The position numbers and the translations under genes were made by a program. Shown here piece by piece: positions 2,319 through 27,198 of a DNA stretch of 27,198 nucleotides. Every line of letters starts with the position of its first letter. Within the stretch, counting starts at the first letter, position 1. The notes below the pieces were generated by a model. It worked only from the letters and a program-made list of their open reading frames with translations, was not told the origin of the DNA and made no database searches. This stretch comes from a virus, in IMG/VR virus record IMGVR_UViG_3300043409_001314, positions 1-27,198 of that record; one strand, 5' to 3'.

Positions 2319-2325
2319 AAACAAC

Positions 2326-3728: not shown

Positions 3729-3778
3729 CCTAACGACCAACAACGGCGCGGCTTTGTCGCTGCTCCATGTTGTAAACG

Positions 3779-7001: not shown

Positions 7002-7026
7002 CCCTTAATTTAACTAACTCACTACT

Positions 7027-7911: not shown

Positions 7912-7942
7912 TCAGAAGCCTGGCAATAGGCTAGACAGTCTT

Positions 7943-7973: not shown

Positions 7974-7989
7974 TTAATCCAACAACAAC

Positions 7990-8871: not shown

Positions 8872-8874
8872 GTT

Positions 8875-10528: not shown

Positions 10529-10558
10529 CGCATGGCCTAAGTTCAAACCCATCTTACT

Positions 10559-10927: not shown

Positions 10928-10947
10928 GGCATGGCGCCACTTGGCCC

Positions 10948-12824: not shown

Positions 12825-13420
12825 TGAGTGGTTATGTAGACGGTAATTTTGCCAACGCTTTTCTGACCTCTAACGTGGTCAGCTATCCTTTCCAGATCCC
12901 TGGCAATTCAACCACTGCGCTTTTTACTTTAGAGTATATCCGAAACGCAGCCAACTATACGGCGGCATCATTAGCCAGTAACTCGGCTGACGCACCTAAC
13001 GCATACTTAGTCGAGCAAGGGCCAGTAACTAAAATTGGTAGCTTGGTTAAATATACCAGAATTTATTGCCAGTTACCAGTGGGCTGGACTGAAACCCAGC
13101 AAACGACTTACACTTTCCCAGGCTTATCCGGTGGCGATCCTTGGAATCCCTATTTTGCTCGGCAGCCTATCACGCTTTATTGCAACGCAACATTGACCCA
13201 TTCTTACACGGTAAGTGCTGCCAGCCCTACCATTGCCGGCGCCTTTACGGTAACCGATCATGGTAACGTGGTAGATTACATCGGGCCCTGCAATCCTGAG
13301 TACGGAAGTGGCTCAACTGATCCTGCGGTTGAACCGGCTGTTTATACCATTTCTGGACAATCTAGTATGATTAAAGGTCTGATCTGGGAAAAGATAGTAA
13401 CAACCGTACCAAGTCCTTAA
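12824..13420 (+). CDS. Tail/virion structural protein, unknown
   Basis: A 198-aa beta-rich protein in the tail-tip region, directly after the tape measure gene. It is rich in Thr, Ser, Tyr and Pro, with strands such as TALFTLEYIRNAANY, VKYTRIYCQLPVGW and AGAFTVTDHGNVVDYIG, and has four cysteines or fewer and no catalytic motif. Proteins like this, found between tape measure and fibre, usually form distal tail or baseplate-like pieces. The ATG shares its A with the last base of the previous stop (TAATG). I do not recognise the family. Confidence 0.5.
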   Translation: MSGYVDGNFANAFLTSNVVSYPFQIPGNSTTALFTLEYIRNAANYTAASLASNSADAPNAYLVEQGPVTKIGSLVKYTRIYCQLPVGWTETQQTTYTFPGLSGGDPWNPYFARQPITLYCNATLTHSYTVSAASPTIAGAFTVTDHGNVVDYIGPCNPEYGSGSTDPAVEPAVYTISGQSSMIKGLIWEKIVTTVPSP

Positions 13421-13421
13421 C

Positions 13422-14024
13422 ATGGCAGCCGGCGCCCCGCAGATCCCTTTATGCATCCCTGGTGGCTCGTCGCTGATTTCGGCCTCGTATGCCAATCAGT
13501 TAATCACGCCAATTAATGGCCTGCTAAATGGCACCGTAGCACCGATTGCAAGCGTTGGCAGCATGCTCTACAGTGGCGGCGCCTTTGTCTTAGATCTCAG
13601 CCCTATAGATCAGCGAGTGCGTAAGCTTGAGCGTGCCGGCGTGGCCGTGCTAACCTACCCTTTCCAGATCCAGAATTTTTATGCCAATATCAAGGTGCGG
13701 TATGGCACGGTAAACGATTTAGCGCCAAGCGGTCTGGCTGCAAATGTGACGCCTAACAATACGGCAACTAGCAATGTGTGGATTAACTGCACTTTGGCGG
13801 CAAATGGTGTTATTACGGCAGCAGCATTACAGGTCAGCACATCAGCGCTGCCGGCTGCTAGCACGTACCAGGCTTACAAGCTTCTCGGTCAGGTAACGGT
13901 AGCTGAAAACGTGGTCACATCGATCAACCAGGCTGTCACGCATAGCATGGGCTTTTATGCGTGTGATAGAAACACCGCAGATCCAGCCACTACACGTGGC
14001 ACATACGAATTCTGGGGAGTTTAA
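13422..14024 (+). CDS. Tail/virion structural protein, unknown
   Basis: A 200-aa protein, probably a tail-tip or fibre-adaptor component. The N-terminal half has PIDQRVRKLERAG (about residues 60-73), a short coil that could trimerise. The second half, from about residue 80, reads as a beta domain: FYANIKVRYGTVNDLAPSGL, NVWINCTLAANGVITAAAL and YQAYKLLGQVTVAENVV. The combination of short coil and beta domain resembles small trimeric adaptor or receptor-binding proteins. It begins one base after the previous stop, with no Shine-Dalgarno, and is followed 2 bp later by another tail gene. Function is inferred from context only. Confidence 0.5.
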   Translation: MAAGAPQIPLCIPGGSSLISASYANQLITPINGLLNGTVAPIASVGSMLYSGGAFVLDLSPIDQRVRKLERAGVAVLTYPFQIQNFYANIKVRYGTVNDLAPSGLAANVTPNNTATSNVWINCTLAANGVITAAALQVSTSALPAASTYQAYKLLGQVTVAENVVTSINQAVTHSMGFYACDRNTADPATTRGTYEFWGV

Positions 14025-14026
14025 TC

Positions 14027-15244
14027 ATGATCTGGCCTCCACAAAATACTGGAGTGTTTGCGCCGGCGCTATGTGTTGTTTGTTGCGCAATTCCAAATGA
14101 TTCTTTCGCATGCTTTTGTAGCATTTCAAATAACACAGTTTATGGTAACATAACTTTATTTGATTATGCGGGTGCTGAGAATTTTTTAGATGGGTCTGCT
14201 TCAGAAGCCATTATGGCAAATTGCAAAATTTTAATGGCTAGCGGTCCTAATTTCTATTTTTCTAATTATAGTGTTAATGAAACAACACCAAACCAAGTAA
14301 CCATTACCGGAACATCCGCTCATGATACTATTGTAAGCGGAAACCCAGGTATTAATTTTTGGACAAGCTTATCTTTGAAAAAAGATAGCATTTTAACAAT
14401 TGAGAATTTTATAGCTTCTCCAAATCCAACTGATTCCTCCTACAAATCAGCTGCATTATATGAATGTAACAACTCTGGATACATAGGTTTGGCACAAGGA
14501 AATGTATTATCATCGCCCTACTCTTTTGTTAGTTTAGAAAATGATGGTGAGTATCTTTTAATTATGAGTGTAGTTGGAGATTATGAAGAATCATCCTATT
14601 TGCCTATGCAATTGGTATCTACAATCAGCAGCGATGATACTATGATTGTAAACCGTGGTGTAGCTATTTATTATGATGCTGGTATAGACGATTACAGCAC
14701 CCTTGAGGCATGCCCAAAATTAAAATTACCGCCTTTAACCGAATCAAGTGGTGATTGGTACATAGATGAAGGTGCTGCACAAACTGTAATAGATGATTTA
14801 ACAAGCAACTGCATAGCATACATAGAAACATTGTCAGCAAATCAGAGCATTACTGCCACAGAACCATCATCTGATTTATATATTGTTTTTACTGATAGCA
14901 CTAATCTTCCTGCTGCATCCCCTTATATTTGGTGTTCAATAAATGTAATAAACGACGAAACATTATCATTTGATTATGTTCATTACATTGGTGGAACAAT
15001 ATCAATTTATAATTATAATGGAATTTTGGTAGAATCATTATCTGGATCTACTTCTAGCATTACGTCCAGTGCTGTTCCGTACCACGGAAGATACATAATT
15101 AAGCTATTATTAAATAACGAAACCAGCGGGCCATTTACAAACGCAAGCGTAACAATTACTTCTTCCGGTGCTATGTCAGTTAATGAAATATCTGCGGCGT
15201 ATGATGTGGGATTAACATGTCCAGCGTACCTTGATTGCGTATGA
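14027..15244 (+). CDS. Unknown beta-rich protein, atypical composition
   Basis: A 405-aa protein I do not recognise. It is rich in Ser, Thr, Asn, Asp and Tyr, with runs of predicted strands such as NTVYGNITLFDYAG, YSFVSLENDGEYLLIMSVVGD and GGTISIYNYNGILVESL. The N-terminus is cysteine-rich (CVVCCAIPNDSFACFC at about residues 16-31). No coil or TM segment is evident after that. The DNA is clearly more AT-rich than the flanking genes, codons favour A/T endings, and after its first 40 bases it holds no GCCGGC word, unlike nearly every other part of the window. It lies among tail-tip genes and its stop overlaps the next start, so a receptor-binding or tail-decorating role is plausible. It looks recently acquired. 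Confidence 0.5.
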   Translation: MIWPPQNTGVFAPALCVVCCAIPNDSFACFCSISNNTVYGNITLFDYAGAENFLDGSASEAIMANCKILMASGPNFYFSNYSVNETTPNQVTITGTSAHDTIVSGNPGINFWTSLSLKKDSILTIENFIASPNPTDSSYKSAALYECNNSGYIGLAQGNVLSSPYSFVSLENDGEYLLIMSVVGDYEESSYLPMQLVSTISSDDTMIVNRGVAIYYDAGIDDYSTLEACPKLKLPPLTESSGDWYIDEGAAQTVIDDLTSNCIAYIETLSANQSITATEPSSDLYIVFTDSTNLPAASPYIWCSINVINDETLSFDYVHYIGGTISIYNYNGILVESLSGSTSSITSSAVPYHGRYIIKLLLNNETSGPFTNASVTITSSGAMSVNEISAAYDVGLTCPAYLDCV

Positions 15245-15435
15245 ATCCTAAAATTATTACTTTAAGTGAACGCATAAACAGGCAATCTGGTCTTGGCAGT
15301 CAGATCCAAAGCGTAATACACAGCGCACTTGATGCCACTCCTATGCCGGCTAAAATGCGCCACGCAATCAAGGGATGCCGTAGCTGCCGTCAACGCAAGG
15401 ATGCGCTTAATCGTATCTTCCCAGGCACTAGTTGA
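15241..15435 (+). CDS. Small CxxC protein, unknown
   Basis: A 64-aa basic protein. The ATG at 15241 overlaps the previous stop (ATGA) and is preferred over the in-frame TTG at 15235. The C-terminal third contains GCRSCRQRKDALNRIFPG, a CxxC pair followed by a basic helix. This C-x-x-C-x-x-(R/K)-x-x-x-L-N pattern is one I recall from small proteins in many tailed phages, usually near tail or lysis genes and of unknown function; a single CxxC might bind metal as a dimer. The middle part SGLGSQIQSVIHSALDATPMP appears as a short helix and a turn. GCCGGC returns in this gene, marking the end of the unusual stretch upstream. Confidence 0.55.
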   Translation: MNPKIITLSERINRQSGLGSQIQSVIHSALDATPMPAKMRHAIKGCRSCRQRKDALNRIFPGTS

Positions 15436-15451
15436 CTGACTGACCTTTTTC

Positions 15452-15817
15452 ATGGCTGGCGACTACCTAAATATCATTCAAGGCGATACCTATGTTTTTA
15501 GCACGAACGTATCTATCGACGGCGTTGCGCAAAACGTAGCCGGCGCAACGATCTGGTTTATGGCCAAGACTCCTGGTCAAGATCTGCCAGACAACCAGGC
15601 TAACATCAGCGTCAGCACCAGCACCGGCCAGATCGCCATCAGTGGCGCCAACAGCAACGTCATTACTGTTACGCTTAACACGGCTTACACGGCCAACCTA
15701 GCAGAATCAAACGTGCTAAGCTGGGCGCTAAAGATGCGCAGCACGGTGGGTAACGTCTACACACTCGACCGTGGGCAGGCTGCGGTTTGCGTGCCGGTCA
15801 TAATCACCAATAGCTGA
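15452..15817 (+). CDS. Baseplate/fibre-associated beta-sandwich protein (BppU-N-like, putative)
   Basis: A 121-aa protein with the pattern of N-terminal beta-sandwich domains of upper-baseplate proteins: IIQGDTYVFSTNVSIDGVA (residues about 8-26), a central AGATIWFMAKTPG and a late WALKMRSTVGNVYTLDRGQA. 'QGDTxxF' followed by 'G...x-F.AK' occurs in many such domains, here as a free-standing small protein before the fibre gene. It probably forms part of the tail tip to which the fibre attaches. There is no Shine-Dalgarno; the leader is TGACTGACCTTTTTC. A tail adaptor is the safest description. Confidence 0.5.
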   Translation: MAGDYLNIIQGDTYVFSTNVSIDGVAQNVAGATIWFMAKTPGQDLPDNQANISVSTSTGQIAISGANSNVITVTLNTAYTANLAESNVLSWALKMRSTVGNVYTLDRGQAAVCVPVIITNS

Positions 15818-15821
15818 TGCC

Positions 15822-16112
15822 ATGCCTTGCCAGATCCTCACCAGTGGACTGAAGGCTAAAGCAACGCCAGCCGGCGCCTTGGCTTTAAGCGCAACGCCAG
15901 CCGGCGCACTTTATCAAAATGCCAACCCATCAGGATCAATTTCAGAAAACGGTAGACCGGCCGGCGGCATGGCAGAGAATGCTAGACCACAAGACTCTGG
16001 CTGGTGCCAGGTCTATCAGTTTGCAGTGGACGCTCGGCTCATTGTTACCTTTGACGATGTGCAAATGGTCACTTTTAGTGGCAATGATCTAGCAACCTTT
16101 TCTTCAATATGA
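15822..16112 (+). CDS. Small protein with decapeptide repeats, unknown
   Basis: A 96-aa protein between tail-tip and fibre genes. Residues 14-63 form about five degenerate 10-residue units: [40 protein letters not shown] and [10 protein letters not shown]. The constant part is Pro at position 3 and Gly at position 5. The C-terminal 35 residues, ending [19 protein letters not shown], look beta-like with two similar half-units (VTFDDVQM and VTFSGNDL). A regularly turning repeat of this kind could wrap around or stack on the fibre. Its end overlaps the fibre start (ATGA at 16109-16112). I do not recognise the family. Confidence 0.5.
15861..15907 (+). repeat. Two 17-bp direct repeats, 30-bp period
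   Basis: The 17-bp word GCAACGCCAGCCGGCGC is present at 15861-15877 and again at 15891-15907. The 30-bp spacing equals the 10-residue protein repeat of the gene it lies in, so it marks a recent duplication of one repeat unit. Confidence 0.9.
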
Positions 16113-19100
16113 GCGTTAATTTTGCAAATTTTACTGCGGCAACTTCGCCGGCCTTAACTGATAACGTGGTTGGCTATGCAAACACCCTACCCAATGGTGA
16201 GCGCCGTACTACTTTAGCGGCCACGCTGGCCTTGTTTCAGACCAATTCTAACCTTTCTGGGGACGTTACCAGTGTTGGCTTGGTTACAACGCTGGCTAGC
16301 AACGTGGCCACGGCCGGCACGACTGGCAGCAGCACGGCTATTCCGGTTATTACGATTAACGCCAAAGGTCAGACTACTGGCATTACGACTAGCCCAGTGG
16401 TGGCGCCGGCATCTACCTTAACAGGCAACCTAGGAATTAGCAGTTTCAATTCTGGCACCTCGGCCAATGCCAACACCTATTGGCGTGGGGACGGTACTTG
16501 GGCAAACATTACTGCCGGCGGCAGCGGGACCGTAACGAGCGTATCAATAAACACCAATGCTGGCGTCTCAGGCAGCGTAGCCACGGCCACTACTACCCCA
16601 AATATAACACTTACCCTGGGCGCGATTACCCCAACCAGCGTTAATGCGGTTATCCTATCTGGTACATCTTCGCCGGCGCTGGCAGTATCTGGCTCTAGCT
16701 CGATCAGTGGGGCCAATAGTGGTGATCAAACAATTACCCTGACCGGTGATGTAACCGGTAGCGGGACTGGATCGTTTGTTACAGCAATTGCAGCTAACGT
16801 AATTGTTAACGCCGATATCAATACTGCTGCCAATATCGCTGATACCAAATTGGCTACGATCAGCAGTGCATCTAAAGTAAGCAACAGCGCTACTACGGCT
16901 AGTAGCAGCAATGTGGCATCAGCCATTGTCGCCAGAAGCGCGGCCGGCAGTTTTACGGCTAACATCATAACGGCTAACGTGCCTACGGTGTTTAATGTAA
17001 TTATCTATGGCGCGACAGGGGATGGCAGCACCAATGACACGACGGCAGTGCAGGCAGCAATAACGGCAGCAGCCGTGGCCGGTGGCGTAGTCTGGTTCCC
17101 AGTTGGTACGTACATCATTGGTACGGCGCTAACGATTTCAGCAACTAATGGCGTGATCTTGCGCGGCGCCGGCGTTGGCAGCATAATCAAATCAAACAGC
17201 CAGGCACTAGGCGAGATCCTGACCATCACCGGATCTAACGTAGTGGTGGAGTATCTTACTTTTGATGGGGCTTATGTTTCTGGAGCAAGCAGTGGTGCGA
17301 GTGGTCTAATTAAAACATCTAACGCCCAAGATGTGATTATTCAGAATTGTTTAATTAAAAACTCACTGCGCAACGGCGTGCTGATTTACGGTGATTCACA
17401 GCGGGTACAGATTCTTGATACCAAGCTAAGCAATAATTATTGCTCGATTAGATCATTTAGCAACGGCGCCACAAATAAAACACCAACGGCAGTAAGTGTA
17501 CGCAATTGCGAATTATTGAGCAACTGGGACAGATCAAGCAATGATCAGACCGGTGGCATTAAACTAGAAGCAAGCAGCGCAGTAACTATGGAGTCTAGCG
17601 GCCACATTATTTCTGATAATTATATTTATTCGGTTGGATTGTTAGGCATCGAATTGTGGGGCGGGGGTGGCGTAATGAGTTATTCTGTAATCTCAAATAA
17701 TAGAATTTTTGGTATTGATAGCGCAGATGAATTTGGAATCAGTCTTAATGATTGCCGTCACGTTACTGTCATTGGAAACAGCGTACGGCTTTACGATGGC
17801 TTTGTTGGATTAGAAGCAGCTAACGCTTGCAAATTTTGTATTTTTGAGGGCAACAATGTAAATGTATTTGGTAGCAATGGCACGACAAGATCAAGTTGCG
17901 TAGCGTGCGGCATATTCAATAACAGTGGGCCGGCTCCAGAGCATACCAGCGTTATTGGTAATCTATTATGCGGAGGTGATAAAGGCGTGCAGATTCAAGC
18001 TGCATCAAATACGATTATTTCCAATAATCAGATTAGCGATTTTGAACAAACAATTGTGACGCAGAATGCTAGCTATATAGATGTTAACCATAATCGCTTG
18101 ATGGGCGATTGCACTGCACAGATCACAATTTATGGCACTAATGCCAACATAGCTGACATAGATATTGGGTATAATACTTTTATTGGTAACGCTAGTTTTA
18201 GAAATGTTTTTGGGTATAACGACAGCAGTGCTTACACTTTTACTAATTTTCATTTCCACCATAATGATGGCAAGCTGGCCACTTTTGTTGGCGGTTATGA
18301 TTCTTTTACCCTGCAATGGGATGCGGCCGAATTAATTAATTTTATACGCGAGGATAATTATTACGTCACTGAAGCAAATTACGCTAGTTGGCCATACGAA
18401 ACTAGCACTGATGTTCCGGTGCCACCGTATGCACCATCTGAACAAGAATTTTCTATCCCTATAGCTAGTAAATATGATATCGCAATTACTTCAAGCGCGG
18501 TAGCTCGCTGGTACAAAATTTTTAGTTTAGATTACGGCACGGCAATTGATTTTGCAGTGCATATACAATGCGATTTTCTGGCTACCGATAATACTGCATC
18601 AAGCCAGACCTTTTGGATTTCAGGCACACCCTATGGACAGGGCGCCAACATATTAAAGCTACCGGATGGCAGCTACAATGGCGGGAGTCTTTCACAGATT
18701 ATTTATAATAATCTTTCTAATTACTCAATCCATGAGGTCTGGCTAAAGTTTGACGCATGTGGCGCCGGCACTGTCACGGTGGGTGGTGCAGACTTTGCAT
18801 CAAGCTGGATCATTGCGCCAACCGCAGTTACAACGCTGCCAACTTTTGCTACCAATAGTTACACTTTCAACGCCAAGGTAGATCAATCGGCTTTGTCCTC
18901 CAGGTACATGGCTACGGATATGATCACGGTAGCCAATACCGGCCTGCATATTCTTGATAGCAATGCCACGCATGATCTAATTATTAAGCCTGGCAGTAAC
19001 GTAACAGCAGATCGAACACTGACGCTAACTACTGGAGATGCTGACCGCACTGTTACCTTGGCCGGCGATCTTACCACGGCCGGCGCCTATGCGCTCACGC

Positions 19101-21274
19101 TCACCAGTACTGCTGCCACTAACGTAACGCTGCCAACTACAGGCACGCTGTTGGCCTCCGGTGGCGCTTTGGGTACACCAAGCAGCGGCACCCTTACAAA
19201 CGCAACAGGACTACCGTTAAGCACCGGCGTAACTGGTAACTTGCCGGTCACTAATTTGAACAGCGGCACTAGCGCTTCTGCCTCAACTTTCTGGCGCGGT
19301 GATGGCACTTGGGTAACACCAACAGCCGGCAGCGGGACGGTAACGAGCGTGGCTGCTTCGGTGCCAAGTCTACTTTCAATCTCAGGCAGCCCGATCACGA
19401 CCAGCGGCACCCTGGCGATTACCTATAGCGGCACAGCACTTCCGGTGCTAAACGGCGGCACCGGCGTCACAACCTCAACAGGCACAACAAACGTAGTGCT
19501 GTCAGGCTCGCCCACAATCACCACCCCAGTGATTGCCCAAATCAATGACGCAAACGGCAATGAGACGCTGAAGCTGGCTTCGGTGGGGTCTGCAATAAAT
19601 GAGGTCACGATAGAAAACGCACCGAGTGGCAGTGCCGTCCACATCACAGCCACAGGCGGGGATGCTTCGGTTGGGCTGCATCTAGCAGGCAAAGGCGCGT
19701 CAGGTTATGTCAACGTGCAAGATTCGGTTGATGCCACAAAACGCATCATGTTCAACGCTAGCGGTGGAACGACGAACACGCGAACAATGCTGAGCAGCAC
19801 GCAGACGGTAGACAGAACGCTCTCGCTGCCAGATGCCACGGATACGCTAGTTGGTAAGGCGACCACGGACACTCTAACGAATAAAACGCTCACGAGTCCG
19901 ACGATGACTGCGCCTGTTCTGGGAACGCCAGCCAGCGGCACGGTGACAAATCTCACTGGGACGGCCAGCATCAACATTAACGGCACGGTGGGTGCCACCA
20001 CGCCTAGCACGATTGCGGCGACGACGATTAGTGGAAGCGGGACGGCAACTATTGGGCCGGGTGGAGTTGGTAACGGAAATGGAATTGTTAATATTAACGG
20101 TGGCTCTGGAGCAACTGGCGGCCCATACCTTGCTCTCCAAGCAAACGGTTCAAATATTTCGCGTCTTGGGTCTGAAGCAGGAATTCTTGGTAGTGGTTCT
20201 ACAACAAAAACTATATTTTTTGGGCAATCTGCTGGACTTGATATTTACGCAAACGGAGGGCTGGTTTCTACTTTCACCTCCACTGGCCTAAACTCCACGG
20301 CCATCGGAGCCACCACACCTGCGGCGGGTAGCTTTACGACGCTGGCGGCGAGCGGCGTTAGCACCCTTCGGCAGATTAACATTAACACGGGGTCTGCGAG
20401 CAACGTATTCGTCGGCTACACGAACAACGGAACATCTCGCTGGATGACTAGCATCGGCGGCACGGAGTCTGGCAGCAACACTGGTTCGGATTTCCGATTC
20501 GATAACTACAACGACGCGGGCGCACAGATTTCCACGGCGGTCAGCATCACCCGCAGCACGGGAGTTTTGAACGCGCTTAACGGCCTCGCGGTCACTGGGA
20601 CTTTGTCGACAACAGGAACAATAACAGGAAACATTGATAACGGTTATGTTCTTCTCAATAGAAGCTCTACGTCTTATTATGTCGGAGTTAATTATAGAAC
20701 AGCAAGTGCTGAAAAATGGTTTACTGGTTTGCGCGAAAATCTAACATCAAATAATTATATAATATTCAACCCAGTAACTGGACATGATGTTTTAACATTA
20801 AATACGACTACGGATGCGGCTACTTTTTATGGCGCACTCTCCAAAGGTTCTGGCTCGTTTCGCATCGAGCATCCGCTGCCATCTAAGTCTGCTACGCATC
20901 AACTTGTTCACTCCTTTATCGAAGGGCCAAAGTGTGACCTAATCTATCGCGGTAAAATAAACTTAGTGGACGGCAAGGCATCCGTAAACATCGACACCGT
21001 TGCAACAATGACGGAAGGAACATTTGAAGTGCTTTGCGGCGACGTGCAATGCTTTACCAGCAACGAGTCTGGCTGGGGTGCAATTCGCGGCAAAGTGACT
21101 GGCAACATCCTCACCATCGAGGCGCAAGATGCGGCATCCACAGATAACGTAAGCTGGATGGTAATTGGTGAGCGCAAAGACAAGCACATCATGGACACGG
21201 ACTGGACGGACGATAACGGTCGTCCAATCGTTGAGCCACTCAAGCCAGCAGAACCCGCCCTAGAATCCAAATGA
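16109..21274 (+). CDS. Tail fibre / tailspike with pectate-lyase-like beta-helix
   Basis: Receptor-binding fibre of 1721 aa. The N-terminal 290 residues are low-complexity Thr/Ser/Gly/Ala repeats with [10 protein letters not shown] at W125. Residues about 295-730 look like a pectate-lyase-3-type right-handed beta-helix, starting at [20 protein letters not shown] and continuing through rungs such as [20 protein letters not shown]; this fold often carries polysaccharide-degrading or binding activity. A jelly-roll-like segment follows (about 770-950). A second repeat region contains FWRGDGTW at W1062. [17 protein letters not shown] begins at residue 1400. The C-terminal domain from about 1580 ([38 protein letters not shown]-like [19 protein letters not shown]) is a fibre tip I recall from aquatic phages. 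The part after about 19.35 kb has a different word usage, suggesting module exchange. Confidence 0.88.
16520..16542 (+). repeat. Fibre 23-bp repeat, copy 1
   Basis: This 23-bp segment (begins GGCAGCGGGAC, ends AACGAGCGT) recurs at 19328-19350 with one mismatch (C/G at position 12). Each copy lies about 40 bp after a WRGDGTW-coding segment and encodes GSGTVTSV. Confidence 0.85.
19328..19350 (+). repeat. Fibre 23-bp repeat, copy 2
   Basis: Second copy of the segment at 16520-16542. It coincides closely with the last GCCGGC word (19325-19330) before a 2.7-kb stretch lacking that word, so it sits at a likely recombination joint. Confidence 0.85.
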
Positions 21275-21492
21275 ATTTTGACCCATTGAGCGTAAATGCC
21301 CAGCTGTCCTCGATTCTAACCAGAATGGACGCGCAGGATAAGATGCTTGAGCAAGTGTTGCAGCAGTGCATCAAGACCAACGGTCGAGTGACGATGCTGG
21401 AGAGTTTTAAGAACGAGCTTAAAGGGAAGGTGGCAGTTTTGGCGGCCGTGATTTCGGCAATCACCGCATGGTTAATCAAACGTAACGTCTAA
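21271..21492 (+). CDS. XhlA-like membrane protein, probable lysis accessory
   Basis: A 73-aa protein with a helical, charged N-terminal part (residues about 10-50, [27 protein letters not shown]) and one C-terminal membrane segment at about 53-69 ([17 protein letters not shown]) followed by KRNV. A coiled coil with a terminal TM helix and basic tail is the layout of XhlA-like phage proteins that assist holins, and also of some small proteins that anchor other lysis factors. The start overlaps the fibre stop (ATGA). It lies 0.7 kb before a second membrane protein of holin type. The exact role in lysis is inference. Confidence 0.6.
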
Positions 21493-21510
21493 CAATAACA
21501 ATAATACAAC

Positions 21511-21663
21511 ATGAACAACATGACACTAGATCAGGCCTTGAACAATATTTACAATGCGGCTCGGCTCGCTCCGCTGAACGCTGAGCAGCATGAACTGATC
21601 CGCAAATGCGCGGAGCAGATCGCGGAGGCACTCAAACCAAAAGAAGAACCGAAGGGCGACTAG
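21511..21663 (+). CDS. Small conserved-looking phage protein, 50 aa
   Basis: ATG at 21511 to TAG at 21663 encodes 50 residues, starting MNNMTLDQALNNIYNAAR and ending PKEEPKGD. It is a single helical protein, with LDQALNNIYNAARLAPLN and HELIRKCAEQIAEAL forming two helices joined at a Pro. I recall very similar short proteins near lysis genes in aquatic phages, always of unknown role. The leader TAACAATAACAATAATACAAC has no Shine-Dalgarno, as in other genes of this window. The next gene starts 2 bp after the stop. Good codon usage and a complete, evenly charged helix support a real gene despite the length. Confidence 0.6.
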   Translation: MNNMTLDQALNNIYNAARLAPLNAEQHELIRKCAEQIAEALKPKEEPKGD

Positions 21664-21665
21664 CT

Positions 21666-22199
21666 ATGAGTGGCACGAAGGACACCAACTGGAAAAGCTA
21701 CGGACAAGAGTATGACGGTCGCATTATCGGGCCAGACAACTGGCAAGCTCCGGCTGTTCCTTCGGACTACGACGATCTGTTCAAATGCTCAGACGTGAAC
21801 GTGCTTAACGTAGTCGATCTGGATATTCCAGACGGCTCGCAAGAAGATGCGATTGATTGCGTGCGCGGATCGTTCTACAATTTTAGCAACTGCAAGGTGC
21901 GCGGATCGGTTACGGTGAAGGGCAGTATTAACGGCTGGACGTTGCAAGACTCGCTCGCCGACGGCTTGTTAGAGTTTGGGCAGTATGACAATTACTGGTA
22001 TGCTGGCCGGCCACCGACGCAGGAGATCAAGATTAAGAACTGCACGTCATCGAGTGGCGGCAAGATTACGATACGGCTATGGGATGCCAGCTATCCGTTT
22101 GTTGCTAACACTCAACATCGCGTTCAGCGCGTGCCTAAATTTATTTGGTTCCCTTACTTCTGCTTCCGTAAATTGCAGCAGACAATCTTTGGAATTTAA
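21666..22199 (+). CDS. Unknown phage protein, 177 aa
   Basis: I prefer the ATG at 21666, two bases after the preceding stop; an upstream in-frame start at 21606 would overlap the 50-aa gene throughout. The protein begins MSGTKDTNWKSYGQEYDGR and includes IIGPDNWQAPAVPSDYDDLFKCSDVNVLNVVDL. The middle (SFYNFSNCKVRGSVTVKGSINGW) reads like short beta-helix rungs, and the end is aromatic and basic: RVPKFIWFPYFCFRKLQQTIF (about residues 155-175), which may lie on a membrane. From memory this is a widespread family in aquatic phages, encoded between fibre and lysis genes, with no assigned function. A membrane-associated accessory to lysis is possible but unsupported. Confidence 0.6.
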   Translation: MSGTKDTNWKSYGQEYDGRIIGPDNWQAPAVPSDYDDLFKCSDVNVLNVVDLDIPDGSQEDAIDCVRGSFYNFSNCKVRGSVTVKGSINGWTLQDSLADGLLEFGQYDNYWYAGRPPTQEIKIKNCTSSSGGKITIRLWDASYPFVANTQHRVQRVPKFIWFPYFCFRKLQQTIFGI

Positions 22200-22204
22200 C
22201 TACC

Positions 22205-22603
22205 ATGCTTGACCTACTTACAAACGCACTCGGCGGTGGCGCACTCGGTGTCTTGCTACGCATCGGCAATGGCTTCTTTGATAACTTCAAGGCCGGTCAA
22301 GATCACAAACGCAAGCTAGAGGAAATGCAAGTCCTGGCACAGATCGGCAGCGACAAGGCGCGTTGGGAGGCTTTTACCGCAAGCCAACAGGCAGCAACCC
22401 CGCCGGCTAACGTATCGCCCTGGGCAGCTAATCTGATTACGCTATTTAGACCTTTTATCACGATCACGCTAGTGCTGATCGCAACGGTGATTTACTTTTA
22501 CTCGACGACGGAAGCGCAAAGCTCGACCGCAGACCAACTAAACTTTGCCGCATTCAATTGCATTGGCTGGTGGTTCGGGGATCGGATGAACCGTAAGAAG
22601 TAA
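22205..22603 (+). CDS. Holin-like membrane protein
   Basis: A 132-aa protein with a strong membrane segment at about residues 76-99 (NLITLFRPFITITLVLIATVIYFY), a second weaker one at about 113-124 (NFAAFNCIGWWF), and a hydrophobic N-terminal stretch (LTNALGGGALGVLLRIGNGFF). The C-terminus GWWFGDRMNRKK matches the ending I know from three-TM phage holins of the 'gene-transfer release' type, where a final FGDR-like turn is followed by basic residues. It lies at the end of the late gene block, after the XhlA-like gene. Expected role is timed permeabilisation of the inner membrane. The endolysin partner is not in the window. The leader TTTAACTACC has no Shine-Dalgarno. Confidence 0.65.
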   Translation: MLDLLTNALGGGALGVLLRIGNGFFDNFKAGQDHKRKLEEMQVLAQIGSDKARWEAFTASQQAATPPANVSPWAANLITLFRPFITITLVLIATVIYFYSTTEAQSSTADQLNFAAFNCIGWWFGDRMNRKK

Positions 22604-22608
22604 TTTAC

Positions 22609-22674
22609 ATGAGAGGCCCAGATGAAGATGAAGACGAACAAGAAGACGGTGAAGATATACGCATGCAAATGTGA
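22609..22674 (+). CDS. Tiny acidic ORF (21 aa), possible leader peptide
   Basis: ATG at 22609 (leader TAATTTAC) encodes MRGPDEDEDEQEDGEDIRMQ plus a final Met. Of 21 residues, 11 are Asp or Glu. Its TGA overlaps the GTG start of the phosphoesterase (GTGA at 22671-22674), the same stop/start overlap used by the real genes here. It may be a genuine micro-protein or a coupling device that lets ribosomes reach the GTG start, which has no Shine-Dalgarno of its own. Too short to be proven by sequence. Confidence 0.35.
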   Translation: MRGPDEDEDEQEDGEDIRMQM

Positions 22675-23408
22675 AAGCTAAACGATTTATTGTTTGCTCT
22701 GACATACACGGCGATATGCGCGATGAGCATGCATGCGCTATGCTGCTGGCGTTCACAAAAGATTTTGATCCAGAAATACGAGTAATTAATGGGGATCTCT
22801 GGGACTTCCGTAACTTGCGCAAAGGCGCATCAGATGATGAAAAAGCGGCATCGATGGCCGAGGACTGGGAAGCTGGAATTGATTTTGCTAGTAGGTTTTT
22901 TAACGGCGGCACACAAAACCATTTTCTGCGCGGTAATCACGATGAGCGCATCTGGGATTTTTCAAGATCAGCTACCGGCTTAATTCGCGATTATTCTGAC
23001 GACGGCATTAAATCAATTAACGGCTACGTTAAAAGGTGGCATGCCAAAATGCTGCCATACGATGCAGCGCTTGGCGTATTAGAACTAGGCAAGCTCAGGG
23101 TGGTGCATGGATACTTTGCTGGCGTTAATGCAGCCCAGGCTCACGCTAGAGTGTACCGCAATTGCTTATTTGGCCACACGCATGCCATCGAAGTAGGCGC
23201 CATAGCCTCCTTAGAACCAGAAGAAGCCAGGGGAATTGGTTGCCTTTGCATTCGTGACATGGATTACGTTAACAAGAAAGCCGGCAAGCTACGCTGGTCA
23301 CAAGGCTGGGCGTATGGCTTTTTATTTGAAGACGGCAGCTATCAGTTATTCCAAGCACGGCGCATTAACGGAGTTTTTCATGTCGCAACTCAAATTAAAC
23401 AATACTAA
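22671..23408 (+). CDS. Calcineurin-like metallophosphoesterase
   Basis: A 245-aa phosphoesterase with all metal-binding motifs in order: D11-x-H13 (SDIHGD), GD at 41-42 (NGDLWDF), GNHDE at 88-92, H146 (VVHGYF) and GHTH at 168-171. These bind two metal ions and hydrolyse phosphomonoesters, phosphodiesters or nucleotides. In phages, related enzymes have been tied to DNA ligase-region repair, cyclic nucleotides or 2',3'-phosphate removal, but the substrate cannot be read here. The GTG start overlaps the stop of a tiny acidic ORF. The 3' end overlaps the next gene by 29 bp. Its place at the end of the late genes, away from replication genes, is unusual. Confidence 0.88.
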   Translation: MKAKRFIVCSDIHGDMRDEHACAMLLAFTKDFDPEIRVINGDLWDFRNLRKGASDDEKAASMAEDWEAGIDFASRFFNGGTQNHFLRGNHDERIWDFSRSATGLIRDYSDDGIKSINGYVKRWHAKMLPYDAALGVLELGKLRVVHGYFAGVNAAQAHARVYRNCLFGHTHAIEVGAIASLEPEEARGIGCLCIRDMDYVNKKAGKLRWSQGWAYGFLFEDGSYQLFQARRINGVFHVATQIKQY

Positions 23409-23634
23409 GTGGCTTGATCAGTTGCAGGGCTTGATTGCCACTAAAGAATCAAGACCGCCAGGCAACGGCTGGAATACTCATGCAGAGATAGAAAAGATCT
23501 ATGGCTTTGGTAAATGCAAAACAGCTAGGGTGCTTACTGAATTAAAACAAAAGGGAAAGCTTGAGATGTTTTTTGGCAGCGTAATAAACGCCAAAAAGAT
23601 TAAAGTAAAAGCAGTCTGGTATCGCATCAAATAG
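23380..23634 (+). CDS. Small winged-helix-like protein (putative regulator)
   Basis: The ATG at 23380, with GGAG about 8 bases upstream, is the likely start. It gives 84 aa and lies inside the end of the phosphoesterase gene by 29 bp; the longer in-frame version from 23236 would overlap that gene fully. The sequence GNGWNTHAEIEKIYGFGKCKTARVL cut at a turn, then TELKQKGKLEMFF, reads as helix-turn-helix plus wing, and the end (KKIKVKAVWYRIK) as a basic beta hairpin. This resembles small DNA-binding proteins that read 'condition, then tag with a wing'. It is the last gene of the + strand block, beside the inverted repeats at 23.66-23.71 kb, which could be its operator. Function is inferred. Confidence 0.5.
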   Translation: MSQLKLNNTKWLDQLQGLIATKESRPPGNGWNTHAEIEKIYGFGKCKTARVLTELKQKGKLEMFFGSVINAKKIKVKAVWYRIK

Positions 23635-23655
23635 CGTCCTTGACAGATGCATCAT

Positions 23656-23678
23656 TTATTTACCCCTTTGGTAAATAA
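23656..23678. other. Perfect 9-bp inverted repeat in convergent gap
   Basis: TTATTTACC at 23656-23664 and GGTAAATAA at 23670-23678 flank the 5 bases CCTTT. Both strands give an AT-rich hairpin. It lies 22 bp after the last + strand gene. It could be an operator for the neighbouring HTH-like protein or part of a bidirectional terminator. A TTGACA hexamer lies at 23640-23645, but no good -10 box is at the right distance. Confidence 0.5.
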
Positions 23679-23680
23679 GT

Positions 23681-23709
23681 AAGGCAGGAAGCTATGAACT
23701 CCCTGCCTT
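23681..23709. terminator. Candidate hairpin terminator between convergent gene blocks
   Basis: AAGGCAGG at 23681-23688 pairs with CCTGCCTT at 23702-23709 across 13 bases, in the gap where the + and - strand operons converge. The T run is poor on both sides, so it would be a weak Rho-independent terminator. Position is the main support. Confidence 0.4.
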
Positions 23710-23827
23710 GTAGAGTTAGCTGCTGCCGGCCGGTAGCGTTTCGCGGGACTCAGTTACCGCGTGCCAGGGTCTATTGTTTGCAATGTGTAAATCCGGCCGG
23801 CGGGTGGCAAGCCTAAAGCCTAGCCGG
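23710..23827. other. GC-rich palindrome cluster, non-coding
   Basis: No gene is seen here. GCCGGC occurs at 23725-23730, 23796-23801 and 23823-23828, twice extended to CCGGCCGG. The last is the centre of a near-perfect palindrome at 23816-23836 (AAGCCTAGCC then GGCTA, one extra A, GGCTT) that covers the stop codon of the - strand nuclease gene. CGCGG and CCGCG form a further short stem near 23743-23762. Confidence 0.6.
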
Positions 23828-24250
23828 CTAAGGCTTGATCTCGGTGCAGATCCAAGCACCGGCCTTACGTTCAACCAGGACAAAGCCTACAAACGGAAAC
23901 ATTCTGGCTGCCACCTTAAGTTTTACCCTGGCATCGTCGCGCATAAAGCCTTTGGTTTCGTAGGCTATTAACTCACCATCGAGGTTAAGCGCTATAAAGT
24001 CAGGAGTGTACCGGCAATCGTCACCGATCTTGAAGGTCAATGCATGTACGCCAACCCAAGCCAGCGTAATATCGGCACAAAGTACGGCCAGCCAGGCTGA
24101 TTCCAGTTTGTTAAGCTTAGACTCATCAGCGTTCGGCTTGGCTTTAATAGCCACCTTGATGCTAGATGCTGGGGCAGCCGGCGCAGCATGCAGCTGGGCG
24201 CTGACCTGATCTTGCATGTGCCTGGGCAGATCCGTTAGCTGTAATCTCAT
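23828..24250 (-). CDS. PD-(D/E)XK nuclease, DUF1064-like
   Basis: A 140-aa protein with the core of the PD-(D/E)XK fold: RYTPDFIAL (P83-D84), then GELIAYETKG with E98 and K100, then a helix with K110 (DDARVKLKVAARMFP). An upstream helix with E50 (LNKLESAWLAVL) supplies the additional acidic residue. This order matches DUF1064-type phage nucleases, related in arrangement to junction- or strand-cleaving enzymes of recombination and replication. It closes the early operon, after a 118-bp non-coding gap, and would work with the ERF protein upstream. The start ATG has no Shine-Dalgarno (GATAAAAAAACAGCG). The N-terminal 45 residues are Ala/Pro/Lys-rich and probably loose. Confidence 0.78.
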   Translation of the reverse strand: MRLQLTDLPRHMQDQVSAQLHAAPAAPASSIKVAIKAKPNADESKLNKLESAWLAVLCADITLAWVGVHALTFKIGDDCRYTPDFIALNLDGELIAYETKGFMRDDARVKLKVAARMFPFVGFVLVERKAGAWICTEIKP

Positions 24251-24368
24251 CGCTGTTTTTTTATCACGTCTTAGATGATGTGTTAAGTTTTATCGGTTTT
24301 TTTACTACCTTTAAGAAGTGTTTCAGCTTTATACCTAATCAGGAGTTTCTAAACCTTGCGACGTTATG
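24251..24368 (-). promoter_or_regulatory. AT-rich gap with two A-tracts, possible promoter
   Basis: Non-coding on both strands. On the - strand it holds two A7 tracts (24303-24297 and 24262-24256) 41 bp apart, about four helical turns, which could bend DNA. A TTAACA hexamer with a 17-bp spacer to TAAAAA lies just before the nuclease ATG; if used, the mRNA would be nearly leaderless. This is the only clear break in the early operon. Confidence 0.3.
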
Positions 24369-24596
24369 TTAGTGAATTGGCGCCGTAGTAAATAATCGGC
24401 GCCGGCCTTTGATTACTTCAAGTGGCGGTGGTTCTACTGGCGGCTGATAGCGATAAATAGGCGGGATATAATACTTAAAAGGCTTGGCCGGTGCTGGAGG
24501 CTTAGGCATGCGTTTGTGTTTAGGCGCGGGATCTCCAAGCTGAATGAGGCCGGCAGCAATAGCGTCAGCCACTATTTTTTTAGGATCAAGGCGCAT
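24369..24596 (-). CDS. Small Pro-rich protein, unknown
   Basis: A 75-aa basic protein. The first 22 residues form a helix (PKKIVADAIAAGLIQLGDP); the rest is proline-, lysine- and tyrosine-rich (KPPAPAKPFKYYIPPIYRYQPP, then VEPPPLEVIKGRRRL in pieces) and probably disordered. The start overlaps the end of the SWIM-type gene by 11 bp, so it belongs to the early operon. Near its 3' end GGCGCCG (24379-24385) and CGGCGCC (24397-24403) form a 7-bp stem that may stabilise or end the transcript. No family recognised. A helix followed by a flexible tail suits a binding adaptor, but that is inference. Confidence 0.45.
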   Translation of the reverse strand: MRLDPKKIVADAIAAGLIQLGDPAPKHKRMPKPPAPAKPFKYYIPPIYRYQPPVEPPPLEVIKGRRRLFTTAPIH

Positions 24597-24810
24597 CGGC
24601 TAGGTGGTATTCTGAGTATTCTTTTACGGCTGTTAGGTGCCTACAATAAAATTGGTTACCAGTGCGCTGCCTATAACGTCGCTGCCGTGTCGTCCAAGAC
24701 ACGCAACCGCATGACTCAGCAATAATATCGACGGTGTGGCATTGCGGTGGAAAGCTTACACTGCTTACCAAAAAACGATCAGGCTGACCTTTAATGGGTG
24801 TAACGGTCAT
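24586..24810 (-). CDS. SWIM-type zinc-finger mini-protein
   Basis: A 74-aa protein consisting of little more than a SWIM-like zinc finger. The ligands are arranged C-x-C (SCGCVSW, about residues 33-35), about 20 residues, then C-x-H (FYCRHL), with a short beta hairpin before (DRFLVSSVSFPPQCHTVDII). SWIM fingers (CxCx(n)CxH) bind DNA or protein in recombination-related factors and transposases. The gene overlaps its upstream neighbour by ATGA and its downstream neighbour by 11 bp. Similar free-standing fingers occur beside replication genes in other phages as I recall. Roles in single-strand DNA handling or as an adaptor for the operon's ERF/nuclease are guesses. Confidence 0.6.
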   Translation of the reverse strand: MTVTPIKGQPDRFLVSSVSFPPQCHTVDIIAESCGCVSWTTRQRRYRQRTGNQFYCRHLTAVKEYSEYHLADAP

Positions 24811-25418
24811 GCTTGGCGTAGTCTTGTCTGTTCATCATCTTGCTCAACAGGCTCACTAAAGTGCGCAGCAGTTGCCGTATTGTTAATCAAAAAGGTCTGC
24901 TGGATAGTATCAAGGTCATGCCAGGGCTTGTCACGATCTACAAACTCAGGAAACGCATTACGCCAGCCAGCCGGCTCAGGTGGTGACACTTTCTGATGCG
25001 GGGCTGGTGTATGCGCACCACGCCGGCGCCATGTCGATACGTCATCAGCAAACCTACCCTGGCGATACCATGTGCCAGGGTTAGGGCATCGATCTCCACC
25101 GTCTTGCATGTAGCGGTAAGATGATGGCCACGACCTTACTGCCTCGGCAAACTGGCTGGTTTTATCTAGAAGATACGCTGCCTCATGCTTACGCAGCGCA
25201 CCAGTTATGGCTAGCAAGGCATCTTCTTTGCCTACCTTGCGCGGGTATAGCTCATAAATACTTTCAGCAGCCGGCACGATCTCTGACTTGCGCCGTGCTT
25301 TGCTAGCCGTCTCATGCAACGCACTAGCTGCCTCGACAATCTCCATCGAGGTCAGCCTGCGGCCTAGCTCTTTAGCTTTGAGCGTGCAGTTAGCTATTAA
25401 CTTTTCGCGGAAAGTCAC
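24807..25418 (-). CDS. Phage replication-associated protein (putative)
   Basis: A 203-aa protein with a domain common in phage replication genes. Its signature is IYELYPRKVGKEDALLAI (residues 54-71), a helix with LLDKTSQFAEAVRSW, and NPGTWYRQGRFADD (about 113-126). This 'YP.K.GK..A..AI...L' plus 'P.TW...GR..DD' pair occurs at the C-terminus of replisome-organiser or helicase-loader-like proteins, where an N-terminal HTH is often present. Here that part is short (residues 1-50, helical, Lys/Arg-rich), so the protein may work with another DNA-binding partner. The start overlaps the 69-aa gene by 29 bp; an internal ATG at 25346 is an alternative. Its stop overlaps the SWIM gene start by ATGA. 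Confidence 0.6.
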   Translation of the reverse strand: MTFREKLIANCTLKAKELGRRLTSMEIVEAASALHETASKARRKSEIVPAAESIYELYPRKVGKEDALLAITGALRKHEAAYLLDKTSQFAEAVRSWPSSYRYMQDGGDRCPNPGTWYRQGRFADDVSTWRRRGAHTPAPHQKVSPPEPAGWRNAFPEFVDRDKPWHDLDTIQQTFLINNTATAAHFSEPVEQDDEQTRLRQA

Positions 25419-25599
25419 TGGCTCTATTTAGGTTAACTGCTTTGATCTCTGCTGCTCTCACTTCTGCGCACATGCCAACAGTGCGATGGCTGGGGCCATG
25501 ATTCCAAAAGCGTGCTACTGTTTCAATCTTCTCACGACCCTCCCAGTACAGGTCAGTACGCTCTTGGCAGATGCCGTTTCGTGTATTCGGCTCATTCAT
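25390..25599 (-). CDS. Unknown 69-aa early protein
   Basis: Small protein between the ERF gene and the replication-type gene. Its ATG shares one base with the ERF stop (TGATG at 25601-25597), indicating coupled translation, and its end overlaps the next gene by 29 bp. The sequence has no recognised motif: a charged N-terminus (NGICQERTDLYWEGREKI), aromatic/His residues in VARFWNHGPSH and an Ala/Val/Glu helix MCAEVRAAEIKAVNLNR. Two cysteines are too few for a finger. It is kept because of its coupling and placement, not because of similarity. Confidence 0.4.
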   Translation of the reverse strand: MNEPNTRNGICQERTDLYWEGREKIETVARFWNHGPSHRTVGMCAEVRAAEIKAVNLNRASDFPRKVNS

Positions 25600-26360
25600 C
25601 AGAATGGTACGTCATCAAGTGCGTTATCATTCAATTCTGCCTGCTTTGGCGCTGACGCAACAGCAGCCGGCTGGCCGCGCCCAGTTGCCTGGTCTAACGC
25701 ACTGCGCAGATCTAGATCAGCCTGGGCGATAGCGCCCCGAAACTCTTTCGGCGTATAATTACCCGCCCACCACTCCAGATCACGTTGCGGCATGTCACCG
25801 AGCGTCTGGCCGGCATACTTCTTAATAAACTTAGGCACTACCATTGAGCGCCAACTGCCGTCATTAGCGGCCGCAGGCGCTGCCAAAGGCTGACTTGGTA
25901 CGGAAACCGGCTTAGATGGCTTCATAACGGTGGCAATCGGTGCCTGATAGGCTGGCGCATGTGATGGCAGGCTAGCTTTCTGGCCATCATCGTCCTCATC
26001 AGCCACAATGCCCAAGATCGATGCCAGGCTATAGCGCCGTGCATAAGTGGCAGCGCTGCCGATCCCCTGGGGATCTGCCTTAGCCGGCACCATTGAGATC
26101 GTGCCTGAGATCCATTGGCCAGACTCGTGCATCAAGGTGGTTACAAGGTCTAACCGAGTGCCATCAGTAGGCGCATAGGTCTGGACTACGCTCAGACCAT
26201 TGGCGCCGAGTACCTCGCGTGCTGCATCCCAGACGCTGCCCAAGCTGGCATAATGATTACGGAAATGCGGATTGACCGCATCTTTGGCAGCCGGTGACAG
26301 GCTGGACTGAGCAACAGCCAAGGCTTTTGCTAGGTGATTAATTTCTGGTGAATGACTCAT
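25599..26360 (-). CDS. erf: ERF-family single-strand annealing protein
   Basis: Recombinase of the ERF superfamily, which coats single-stranded DNA and anneals complementary strands for phage recombination and repair. The conserved domain is residues about 5-130: NPHFRNHYASLGSVWDA (30-46), LMHESGQWISGTI (76-88) and KADPQGIGSAATYARRYSL (94-112), then LGIVADEDDDG. A Pro/Ala/Ser linker follows (about 130-170), then a C-terminal domain with WRSMVVPKFIKKYAGQTLGDM and LEWWAGNYTPKEF. The last residues, NALDDVPF, resemble the acidic tip of bacterial SSB proteins. The start overlaps a 38-aa basic ORF (ATGA at 26360-26357), and the stop overlaps the next gene. 253 aa is normal for the family. Confidence 0.92.
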   Translation of the reverse strand: MSHSPEINHLAKALAVAQSSLSPAAKDAVNPHFRNHYASLGSVWDAAREVLGANGLSVVQTYAPTDGTRLDLVTTLMHESGQWISGTISMVPAKADPQGIGSAATYARRYSLASILGIVADEDDDGQKASLPSHAPAYQAPIATVMKPSKPVSVPSQPLAAPAAANDGSWRSMVVPKFIKKYAGQTLGDMPQRDLEWWAGNYTPKEFRGAIAQADLDLRSALDQATGRGQPAAVASAPKQAELNDNALDDVPF

Positions 26361-26473
26361 TGGCTTGGGATGTTTAGTTTGCTGTAGCGTTTACGTTTCT
26401 CAGCCTGGGCAGCCCAAAGTTTTGATTTGGTTACTCCAGACTTGTTAATTTTATATGTGCGGCGACGGCTCAT
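26357..26473 (-). CDS. Tiny basic protein, 38 aa
   Basis: ATG at 26473 to TGA at 26357 encodes 38 residues, starting MSRRRTYKINKSGVTKSKLW and ending YSKLNIPSQ. Fourteen of 38 residues are Lys or Arg against one Glu, so it is strongly basic and could bind nucleic acid. The stop overlaps the ERF ATG (ATGA). The same overlap style is used by the surrounding genes, which argues for a real gene. The start lies at the end of a 21-bp direct repeat. It fills what would otherwise be a gap of 140 bp in a compact operon. Confidence 0.55.
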   Translation of the reverse strand: MSRRRTYKINKSGVTKSKLWAAQAEKRKRYSKLNIPSQ

Positions 26474-26510
26474 GTATGTTAAATTGGCTGTTATGTATGT
26501 TAAATTAGCT
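26472..26510 (-). repeat. Two 18-bp direct repeats, 21-bp period
   Basis: On the + strand, ATGTATGTTAAATTGGCT at 26472-26489 and ATGTATGTTAAATTAGCT at 26493-26510 differ at one base and start 21 bp apart, two turns of the helix. One copy covers the start codon of the 38-aa gene, the other the stop of the 60-aa gene. This may be a regulator binding site (operator) or a duplicated translation-start leader. Confidence 0.7.
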
Positions 26511-26682
26511 TGGTAGGTTTCACGATGTCAGCGCACACCAGAAACACATCTTGGCTGCGCTTATCCCTGGCTTGCTTCATCTCGTGCTGCTGTAGCACGG
26601 CTTCAGCAATGTGTTTATCAGCCTCATTCCCGCGCAGGGACAGGCGCAGGGCATCAAGTAAATTTGATTCGTTATCGGTCAT
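26500..26682 (-). CDS. Unknown 60-aa early protein
   Basis: A short, mostly helical, acidic-to-neutral protein (TDNESNLLDALRLSLRGNEADKHIAEAVLQ in continuing helix turns, then HEMKQARDKRSQDVFLVCADIVKP). It has no recognised motif. Its ATG overlaps the stop of the winged-helix-like gene (ATGA at 26682-26679), and its own stop lies within the second copy of the 21-bp direct repeat. It appears to be an ordinary member of the early operon, transcribed before ERF. Function unknown. Confidence 0.4.
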   Translation of the reverse strand: MTDNESNLLDALRLSLRGNEADKHIAEAVLQQHEMKQARDKRSQDVFLVCADIVKPTKLI

Positions 26683-26927
26683 GGTGCTAATAATCGGTAA
26701 AAGCTATGGCGCACTCCATCTTTCGCCACTTCAGTACGCTGCTCTATGCAGCAGCCACGCTTACGAGCGTCACTGACCCTGCTATGCACCGCGTAAGCAC
26801 CAGTATAGCCTACTAACGTAGGCAGGCTGACCCATTGGCCGGCCGAGCGCTGGAGACGATCAATCAGCTTATCAGTCTGAGTGATGCCACCACCGGTAAA
26901 CACAAACGTAGCTTGTAGATCATTCAT
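26679..26927 (-). CDS. Winged-helix-like DNA-binding protein (putative)
   Basis: An 82-aa protein with a helix-turn-helix reading QWVSLPTLVGYTGAYAVHSRV and DARKRGCCIEQR: a 'W-v-s-l-p-L' helix, a turn and a recognition helix ending SDARKRG, followed by a wing (VRHSFYRLL). This pattern ('lL..Gw.t...L......hSRisdLR..G..I') is common to small phage regulators and replication-related DNA-binding proteins. It lies in the early operon after the methyltransferase, overlapping it by 8 bp. A regulatory role, perhaps at the 21-bp repeats about 200 bp downstream, is inference. Confidence 0.6.
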   Translation of the reverse strand: MNDLQATFVFTGGGITQTDKLIDRLQRSAGQWVSLPTLVGYTGAYAVHSRVSDARKRGCCIEQRTEVAKDGVRHSFYRLLAP

Positions 26928-27198
26928 TGATTTGTTTAATTAAGGTTAAGAAAGCTTTGGTTGCGGTTGCGGGGACAACTCCGTTGCCGAGCAGTCGAAG
27001 TTCGTCGGTGCGATTGTCACAGGCAGCCTGCAACTTGGCATAGTCCAGCCCACTGGCAGTCCCATCAGCGTCTCGACCCAACGGGGATTGAGTTTGCCGT
27101 TTGCCTGCGTTTGAAGATTCTGCGCTCCTTCTTTGTTTGGTGCCTGACCCGCACCAGTCGAGCAATTGGCATGCGGTGTTGCCCACGACTCTTGGCGG
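26920..27198 (-). CDS. DNA cytosine methyltransferase, C-terminal part (cut by window edge)
   Basis: Partial gene; the frame stays open to the right edge (5' end outside). The visible 90 or so residues end with NRTDELRLLGNGVVPATATKAF and LTLIKQINE in direct continuation, the final motif of phage and bacterial DNA (cytosine-5-)methyltransferases, 'L-R-x-L-G-N-x-V-x-P', which precedes the last helix. The segment before it (QTQSPLGRDADGTASGLDYAKLQ) is variable in the family. The SAM loop and PCQ catalytic motif are not in the window, so target base and specificity are unknown. It is first in the visible part of the early operon and overlaps the winged-helix gene by 8 bp. A GTG at 27186 is not its true start. 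Confidence 0.7.
   Translation of the reverse strand, partial: PPRVVGNTACQLLDWCGSGTKQRRSAESSNAGKRQTQSPLGRDADGTASGLDYAKLQAACDNRTDELRLLGNGVVPATATKAFLTLIKQINE

Follow-up and report, generated by a model that had tools for sequence, protein, structure and literature searches.

A probable exchange by recombination of the fibre end and the following small genes in a bacterial virus

Introduction

Where in the genome of a phage does resident DNA end and acquired DNA begin, and to what extent does the word usage of the genome itself reveal the joints? The question is raised by the fibre gene of a freshwater-type bacterial virus. Its linear contig of 27,198 bp, which is the whole IMG/VR record IMGVR_UViG_3300043409_001314, was analysed at full length and is called the window here. 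The palindrome GCCGGC occurs 72 times in the window, compared to 10.7 +/- 3.5 expected from dinucleotide shuffles, i.e., in about 7-fold excess. The longest gap between these sites covers the C-terminal half of the fibre and small genes behind it. The initial annotation had proposed that this stretch was acquired by recombination as one block comprising a fibre tip and a lysis module, with a 23-bp repeat near its left joint. Below, the proposal is examined using word statistics, alignments and trees.

Results

The window and its relatives

The window codes for a lambda-type terminase (PF05876/PF20454), a lambda-family portal, an uncharacterised tail region, a fibre of 1721 aa, several small genes, and a minus-strand arm. 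The nearest syntenic record, IMGVR_UViG_3300036985_003224 (27,790 bp), is referred to as the sister. Its TerL is 97% identical to that of the window, and the DNA is 86% identical over positions 1-12,783 and 84-88% over 21,255-26,687. The sister fibre has 891 aa and differs from the window fibre except for short stretches; a match to the window fibre tip (aa 1561-1721) was not found in the sister. A second group of records (L003-L007, L009 and L018), termed donor-type, possesses TerL proteins which, where found, are merely 38-39% identical to that of the window (E about 1e-116). The intervals that they have in common with the window are 19.45-19.89, 20.83-21.27 and 21.26-22.26 kb, and the DNA identity there is mostly 80-95%. 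Continuous co-inheritance across 19.35 kb in relatives had been named as the finding that would speak against an exchange. The opposite is the case: the sister lacks this fibre, and phages with an unrelated TerL carry its tip.

The following features are relevant (coordinates in the window, strand, description).

16,109-21,274, plus: fibre gene, 1721 aa, with a pectate-lyase/beta-helix domain at aa 295-550 (PF12708, E 5.6e-12)
16,109-19,331, plus: resident (older) fibre part, GCCGGC-rich; k-mer score resident-like up to about 19.2 kb
19,328-19,350, plus: second copy of the 23-bp repeat, candidate for the left joint; encodes GSGTVTSV after WRGDGTW
19,332-19,451, plus: bracket of the left joint, where DNA similarity to other phages starts
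19,451-19,893, plus: fibre segment, probably acquired; 81-86% DNA identity to donor-type phages (74% to L003 and L018), 68-90% at the amino acid level
19,894-20,830, plus: inner, variable stretch of the C-terminal fibre half; foreign word usage, no close relative found
20,831-21,274, plus: fibre tip, the C-terminal ~150 aa; 94% aa identity to L005, L006 and L007, 81% to L016
21,271-21,492, plus: 73-aa gene with one C-terminal hydrophobic segment (borderline); 85-93% aa identity in sister and donors
21,511-21,663, plus: 50-aa gene, conserved upstream of the 177-aa gene
21,666-22,199, plus: 177-aa gene; 94-96% aa identity in donors and sister, 34-54% in many other phages
22,205-22,261, plus: first 57 bp of the 132-aa gene, donor-type; 93% identity to donors versus 65% to the sister, reversing thereafter
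22,262-22,603, plus: resident rest of the 132-aa gene, which is placed like a holin gene and has a membrane segment near aa 74-102
25,599-26,360, minus-strand arm: ERF recombinase gene
26,923-27,198, minus: ORF cut by the contig end, C-terminus NRTDELRLLGNGVVPATATKAF; no family match

Two further observations concern the comparison with the sister. The contigs of the window, L037 and the sister share their first base, which lies just upstream of the small terminase gene; this suggests that position 1 is a true, cos-like genome terminus. Positions 12,783-15,429 of the tail region are a second stretch replaced between window and sister; parts of it have 36-40% GC, the flanking DNA is 80-86% identical, and in the window the stretch has retained resident-like words and GCCGGC sites.

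Word usage

The GCCGGC-free stretch is real. Sites at 19,325 and 22,006 bracket it (free stretch 19,331-22,005), it ends at about 22.0 kb as initially described, and the estimate of some seven missing sites agrees with the roughly 7 that the average of the window predicts. The gap alone is weak, marginal evidence: if 72 points are placed uniformly, the longest of the 73 gaps reaches this size with P about 0.04, and among 33 common hexamers tested alike it ranks sixth, five others being more extreme. One may ask whether any exchange took place at all, i.e., whether the gap and the word shift reflect chance plus the amino acid and codon make-up of the fibre C-terminus. The P value leaves room for this, as does synonymous resampling with pooled codon usage, which yields about 1.2 GCCGGC in the stretch. 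Yet by equal resampling the N-terminal part of the same fibre should have about 1.5 sites and it has 12. This part is an internal control: it has the same motifs and the same S/T/G-rich composition, yet resident word usage.

The change in fibre word usage, also claimed initially, holds much better than the gap. Against a first-order model, observed over expected counts of GCCGGC are 40/5.7 in 1-15.4 kb, 12/1.2 in the fibre before 19.33 kb, 1/1.0 in 19,332-22,260, and 15/2.1 thereafter. For GATC the respective counts are 102/38.5, 18/5.2, 9/9.3, and 32/12.2. Within 19,332-22,260 GGCGCC (0/1.0) and CCGG (5/9.1) were also counted; several words which are in excess on both flanks fall back to expectation there.

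In a scan of k-mer log-likelihood ratios, a resident model was set against one of the donor phages that left out the shared cassette; the resident windows were kept out of the training set. All scan windows starting at 19,201-21,601 were negative; elsewhere a single one, at 6,901, was slightly so. With the sister backbone as resident model, the maximally scoring donor-like segment is 19,390-21,963 (k=4, 80.7 nats) or 19,413-21,962 (k=5, 100.3 nats), the runners-up attaining 12.0 and 20.1 nats, respectively. When the backbone of the window itself served as the resident model the segment was 19.69/19.71-21.96 kb with 66-77 nats, i.e., the left edge came later. The sliding profile proposed as a check is unequal on the two sides and resolves a single donor-like segment with edges at 19.4 and 21.96 kb. 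The switch spans many words and runs on through three further genes, homologues with mostly 80-95% DNA identity sit on foreign backbones, and a tree conflict exists at 22,262 (see below). All this contradicts an explanation by chance and composition, which we consider hardly credible.

The left joint

The 23-bp repeat exists. Its copies at 16,520-16,542 and 19,328-19,350 match in 22 of 23 bases, and the GSGTVTSV which it encodes is a recurring fibre motif and a shared fibre module boundary. DNA similarity to the window starts at 19,332 in L061 and L120 and at 19,334 in L122; in the closest donors, L005 and L009, it starts at about 19,444-19,451. From these alignments the left joint is placed within 19.33-19.45 kb, at or just past the repeat, and the initial view that the repeat lies near the joint is confirmed insofar as donor-type similarity begins at or just after it. 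It is plausible that the repeat was a site for recombination via short homology.

The right joint

At its right end the block had been drawn about 255 bp too short. The GCCGGC at 22,006-22,011 (plus strand) lies within the acquired block and is common to the donor-type phages L003 and L009. Because this site came in with the block, 22,006 is ruled out as the joint.

To locate the switch, informative sites were collected over 21,255-22,660: at 97 sites the window agrees with the donors and not with the sister, at 111 with the sister and not with the donors. A single switch fits best at 22,261, where sites of the first class divide into 84 left and 13 right, those of the second into 29 left and 82 right; none of 20,000 permutations was as extreme. 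In a tree of 21,666-22,255 a tight clade (100/100), without a resolved order inside it, unites window, sister and donors; for the 177-aa gene it does not decide whether the window is nearer to the sister or to the donors (p_AU 0.41). For 22,262-22,600, window and sister pair with 100/100, and a grouping of window with donors is rejected (p-AU 1.7e-5). The whole 132-aa protein is 97% identical to that of the sister versus 72% in donors. There is, then, phylogenetic conflict across a localisable joint at about 22,261. The alignment to relatives, as had been suggested, placed both joints, the left one at 19,332-19,451 and the right one at about 22,261. The module is similar on unrelated backbones, differs in the closest backbone relative, and displays a tree conflict at its joint; these are marks of a mosaic module.

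Direction and number of the probable exchanges

The different ancestry, word signature and joints of the block are observations. We are highly confident in the following explanation: 19.33-22.26 kb is a host-recognition cassette exchanged by recombination, in which DNA from phages of an unrelated backbone took the place of the resident version. The cassette would run from the C-terminal half of the fibre through the 73-, 50- and 177-aa genes into the 132-aa gene, of which it would include the first 57 bp.

Similarity alone carries no direction, and the lineage of the window could conversely have given the cassette to the phages with a 38% TerL. This is very unlikely, considering that the words of the block match the donor genomes and not the window backbone, and that GCCGGC is avoided throughout the donor genomes (0-1 per 10-20 kb in donor loci, under expectation) and the block is poor in it. 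Word usage matching the donors makes the phage of the window the likely recipient. In L004 the cassette is present and GCCGGC is absent; its remaining words are like those of the window backbone (score +0.043).

Was it a single event? At least two successive exchanges, e.g., early acquisition of the 73/50/177-aa genes, prior to the split from the sister, followed by a swap of the fibre tip, are a possibility to be taken seriously. The sister has the 73-, 50- and 177-aa genes (80-94% aa identity) together with another fibre, sister and donors share a patch of 98% identity at 21,255-21,312, and informative sites are mixed at 22,124-22,182. There, sites common to window and sister alone cluster, a conversion patch or a second joint, which reads against a single clean block. 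Donor similarity is also missing from 19.9-20.83 kb: a short piece of the fibre, 19,914-20,036, recurs in many fibres, and a search for relatives of the inner fibre at 20,039-20,788 gave none. Set against this are the donor-like word score, which is uniform over 19.4-21.96 kb, and the fact that donor-type sequence present in the window but not in the sister reaches 22,261 without a clean break. So acquisition by recombination stands, and the single uniform piece of the initial annotation does not, as 19.9-20.83 kb has no relative; without a matching donor for this part, the block is possibly composite. As the 177-aa tree cannot place the window, some of the cassette may predate the split of window and sister. 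The downstream cassette exists in the sister in another version; its acquisition may date from before that split, or there may have been several.

The sister fibre is likewise GCCGGC-free, with a gap that covers the equivalent of about 15.5-23.7 kb. Because the sister's own fibre is equally devoid of the palindrome and is followed by its own version of the 73/50/177-aa genes, we infer that the fibre end and the following genes are an exchange hot spot in this lineage, with at least one exchange in each of the two phages. In the right arm of the sister, 3.8 kb (L008, 14,297-18,078) are without GCCGGC, a candidate for a further recent import.

The genes behind the fibre

The genes named initially are all present in the block, i.e., the fibre C-terminal half and the 73-, 50- and 177-aa genes. 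The label 'XhlA-like' for the 73-aa gene is not upheld: searches of Pfam, PHROGs and NCBIfam gave no match, XhlA (PF10779) included, and assignments to XhlA and holin families were dropped. The designation as a lysis module finds no support in these collections either. The 132-aa protein has a hydrophobic segment and a sole family match, PHROG 6637, of unknown function, and no endolysin family was detected among the window proteins scanned.

The 177-aa gene represents a widespread, unnamed phage family, which in dozens of viral contigs follows a fibre and precedes the 132-aa gene. Invariant residues form a GQYDNYW block and a C-terminal block resembling PK-x-W-x-PYF-x-FR. AlphaFold2 predicts a beta-rich protein (pLDDT 91.1), and the model confidently indicates a compact fold like a right-handed beta-helix with a C-terminal helix. 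A fold search of the PDB with this model returned only weak beta-helix matches (pectate lyase family 3, best E 0.12), and at this E value an enzyme function is not claimed. One viral homologue, of unknown function, was found. Sequence searches of the PDB with the 177-aa protein and with the fibre tip gave nothing convincing. In L200 a 180-aa protein (YDDVWKVSNC..., 15,213-15,755, minus strand) is placed like the 177-aa gene and is possibly a far relative with little sequence similarity.

GCCGGC as a possible HIP-like palindrome

Within genes GCCGGC occurs 58 times versus 12.9 by codon resampling (4.5-fold). As in highly iterated palindromes (HIPs), neither base composition nor dinucleotide or codon usage accounts for the over-representation. 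Only the hexamer is in excess, with no flanking consensus. In the left 14.5 kb of the sister backbone 32 sites were observed and 5.3 expected; the distant backbone relatives L034 and L035 do not share the excess (10/10.4 and 11/7.9). Other words are skewed as well: in 1-15.4 kb GATC is 2.6-fold in excess and GCGCGC is absent versus ~11 expected, and CAGATC is 6-fold over-represented in the window. This HIP-like word signature is common to window and sister, not to relatives with a TerL identity of 73%.

The turnover of GCCGGC sites is much like that of other G+C hexamers; where only one of the two phages, window or sister, has a site, the other mostly differs by a single mutation. Selection for keeping GCCGGC was not apparent in the sharing of sites between the two (31 of 47 versus 72 of 133 for the permuted hexamers, which is not a clear difference). 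The ORF at 26,923-27,198 (minus) ends in NRTDELRLLGNGVVPATATKAF, which we take to resemble motif X of an m5C DNA methyltransferase. A full methyltransferase was not found in the window; L200 carries a full m5C methyltransferase at 8,080-8,946 (PF00145). A search for the host via TerL in genome_contigs returned a sole relative, a 52% match on a 3.2-kb MAG contig, and a host assignment from so small a contig was not trusted.

Discussion

Exchanges of this kind are ordinary phage evolution, and mosaic fibre ends are well known. Mosaic exchange of the ends of tail-fibre and receptor-binding proteins by shuffling of protein fragments has been described (PMC10684548, Nat Commun 2023). As in such cases, the crossover here lies inside the fibre gene at a conserved module boundary, and the distal part stems from an unrelated lineage. 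Two things differ: the exchange also took in three small genes behind the fibre and the first codons of a membrane protein, and a further mark of the foreign stretch is the loss of a hyper-abundant palindrome.

Mechanistically, the left crossover would have occurred in or just after the GSGTVTSV motif, and the right one early in the 132-aa gene, in whose first part donor and recipient may have been similar enough to recombine. Recombination would have used short shared motifs, perhaps with the phage's own ERF-family recombinase, and selection would have acted on receptor specificity. The block would be devoid of GCCGGC because donor phages avoid it while the window backbone accumulated it, with too little time for the block to be converted.

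The less ordinary element of this case is the hyper-abundant GCCGGC acting as a residence marker. Alternate HIPs of cyanobacteria include rCCGGy/GCCGGC in Oscillatoria PCC 10802, which has a methyltransferase of matching specificity (Elhai, 2015, PMC4390886). The likeness consists of a G+C-rich hexameric palindrome in several-fold excess (7-fold in the window) lacking a flanking consensus, and of non-shared sites that mostly differ by a single change. Unlike the cyanobacterial examples it is found here in a phage, and its density in the window is 2.6/kb versus about 1/kb reported for most HIPs. Tentatively, GCCGGC might be HIP-like and accrue via host or phage methylation and mismatch repair, in which case its density could be a residence clock mapping every recent import.

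From word usage alone the recombinant block was located to an accuracy of about 100 bp at its left end and about 300 bp at its right end, and the comparative data confirmed it. Among phages whose packaging genes are unrelated, the fibre tip moves together with a constant set of small genes, those of 50 aa and 177 aa. Because these orphan genes accompany the tip across unrelated backbones, a role at the fibre or in interaction with the host envelope is suggested. If the residence clock is true, it would date imports, namely the fibre-tip cassette in the window and, separately, the fibre in the sister; the GCCGGC excess would then be a route to dating imports and perhaps to finding the host.
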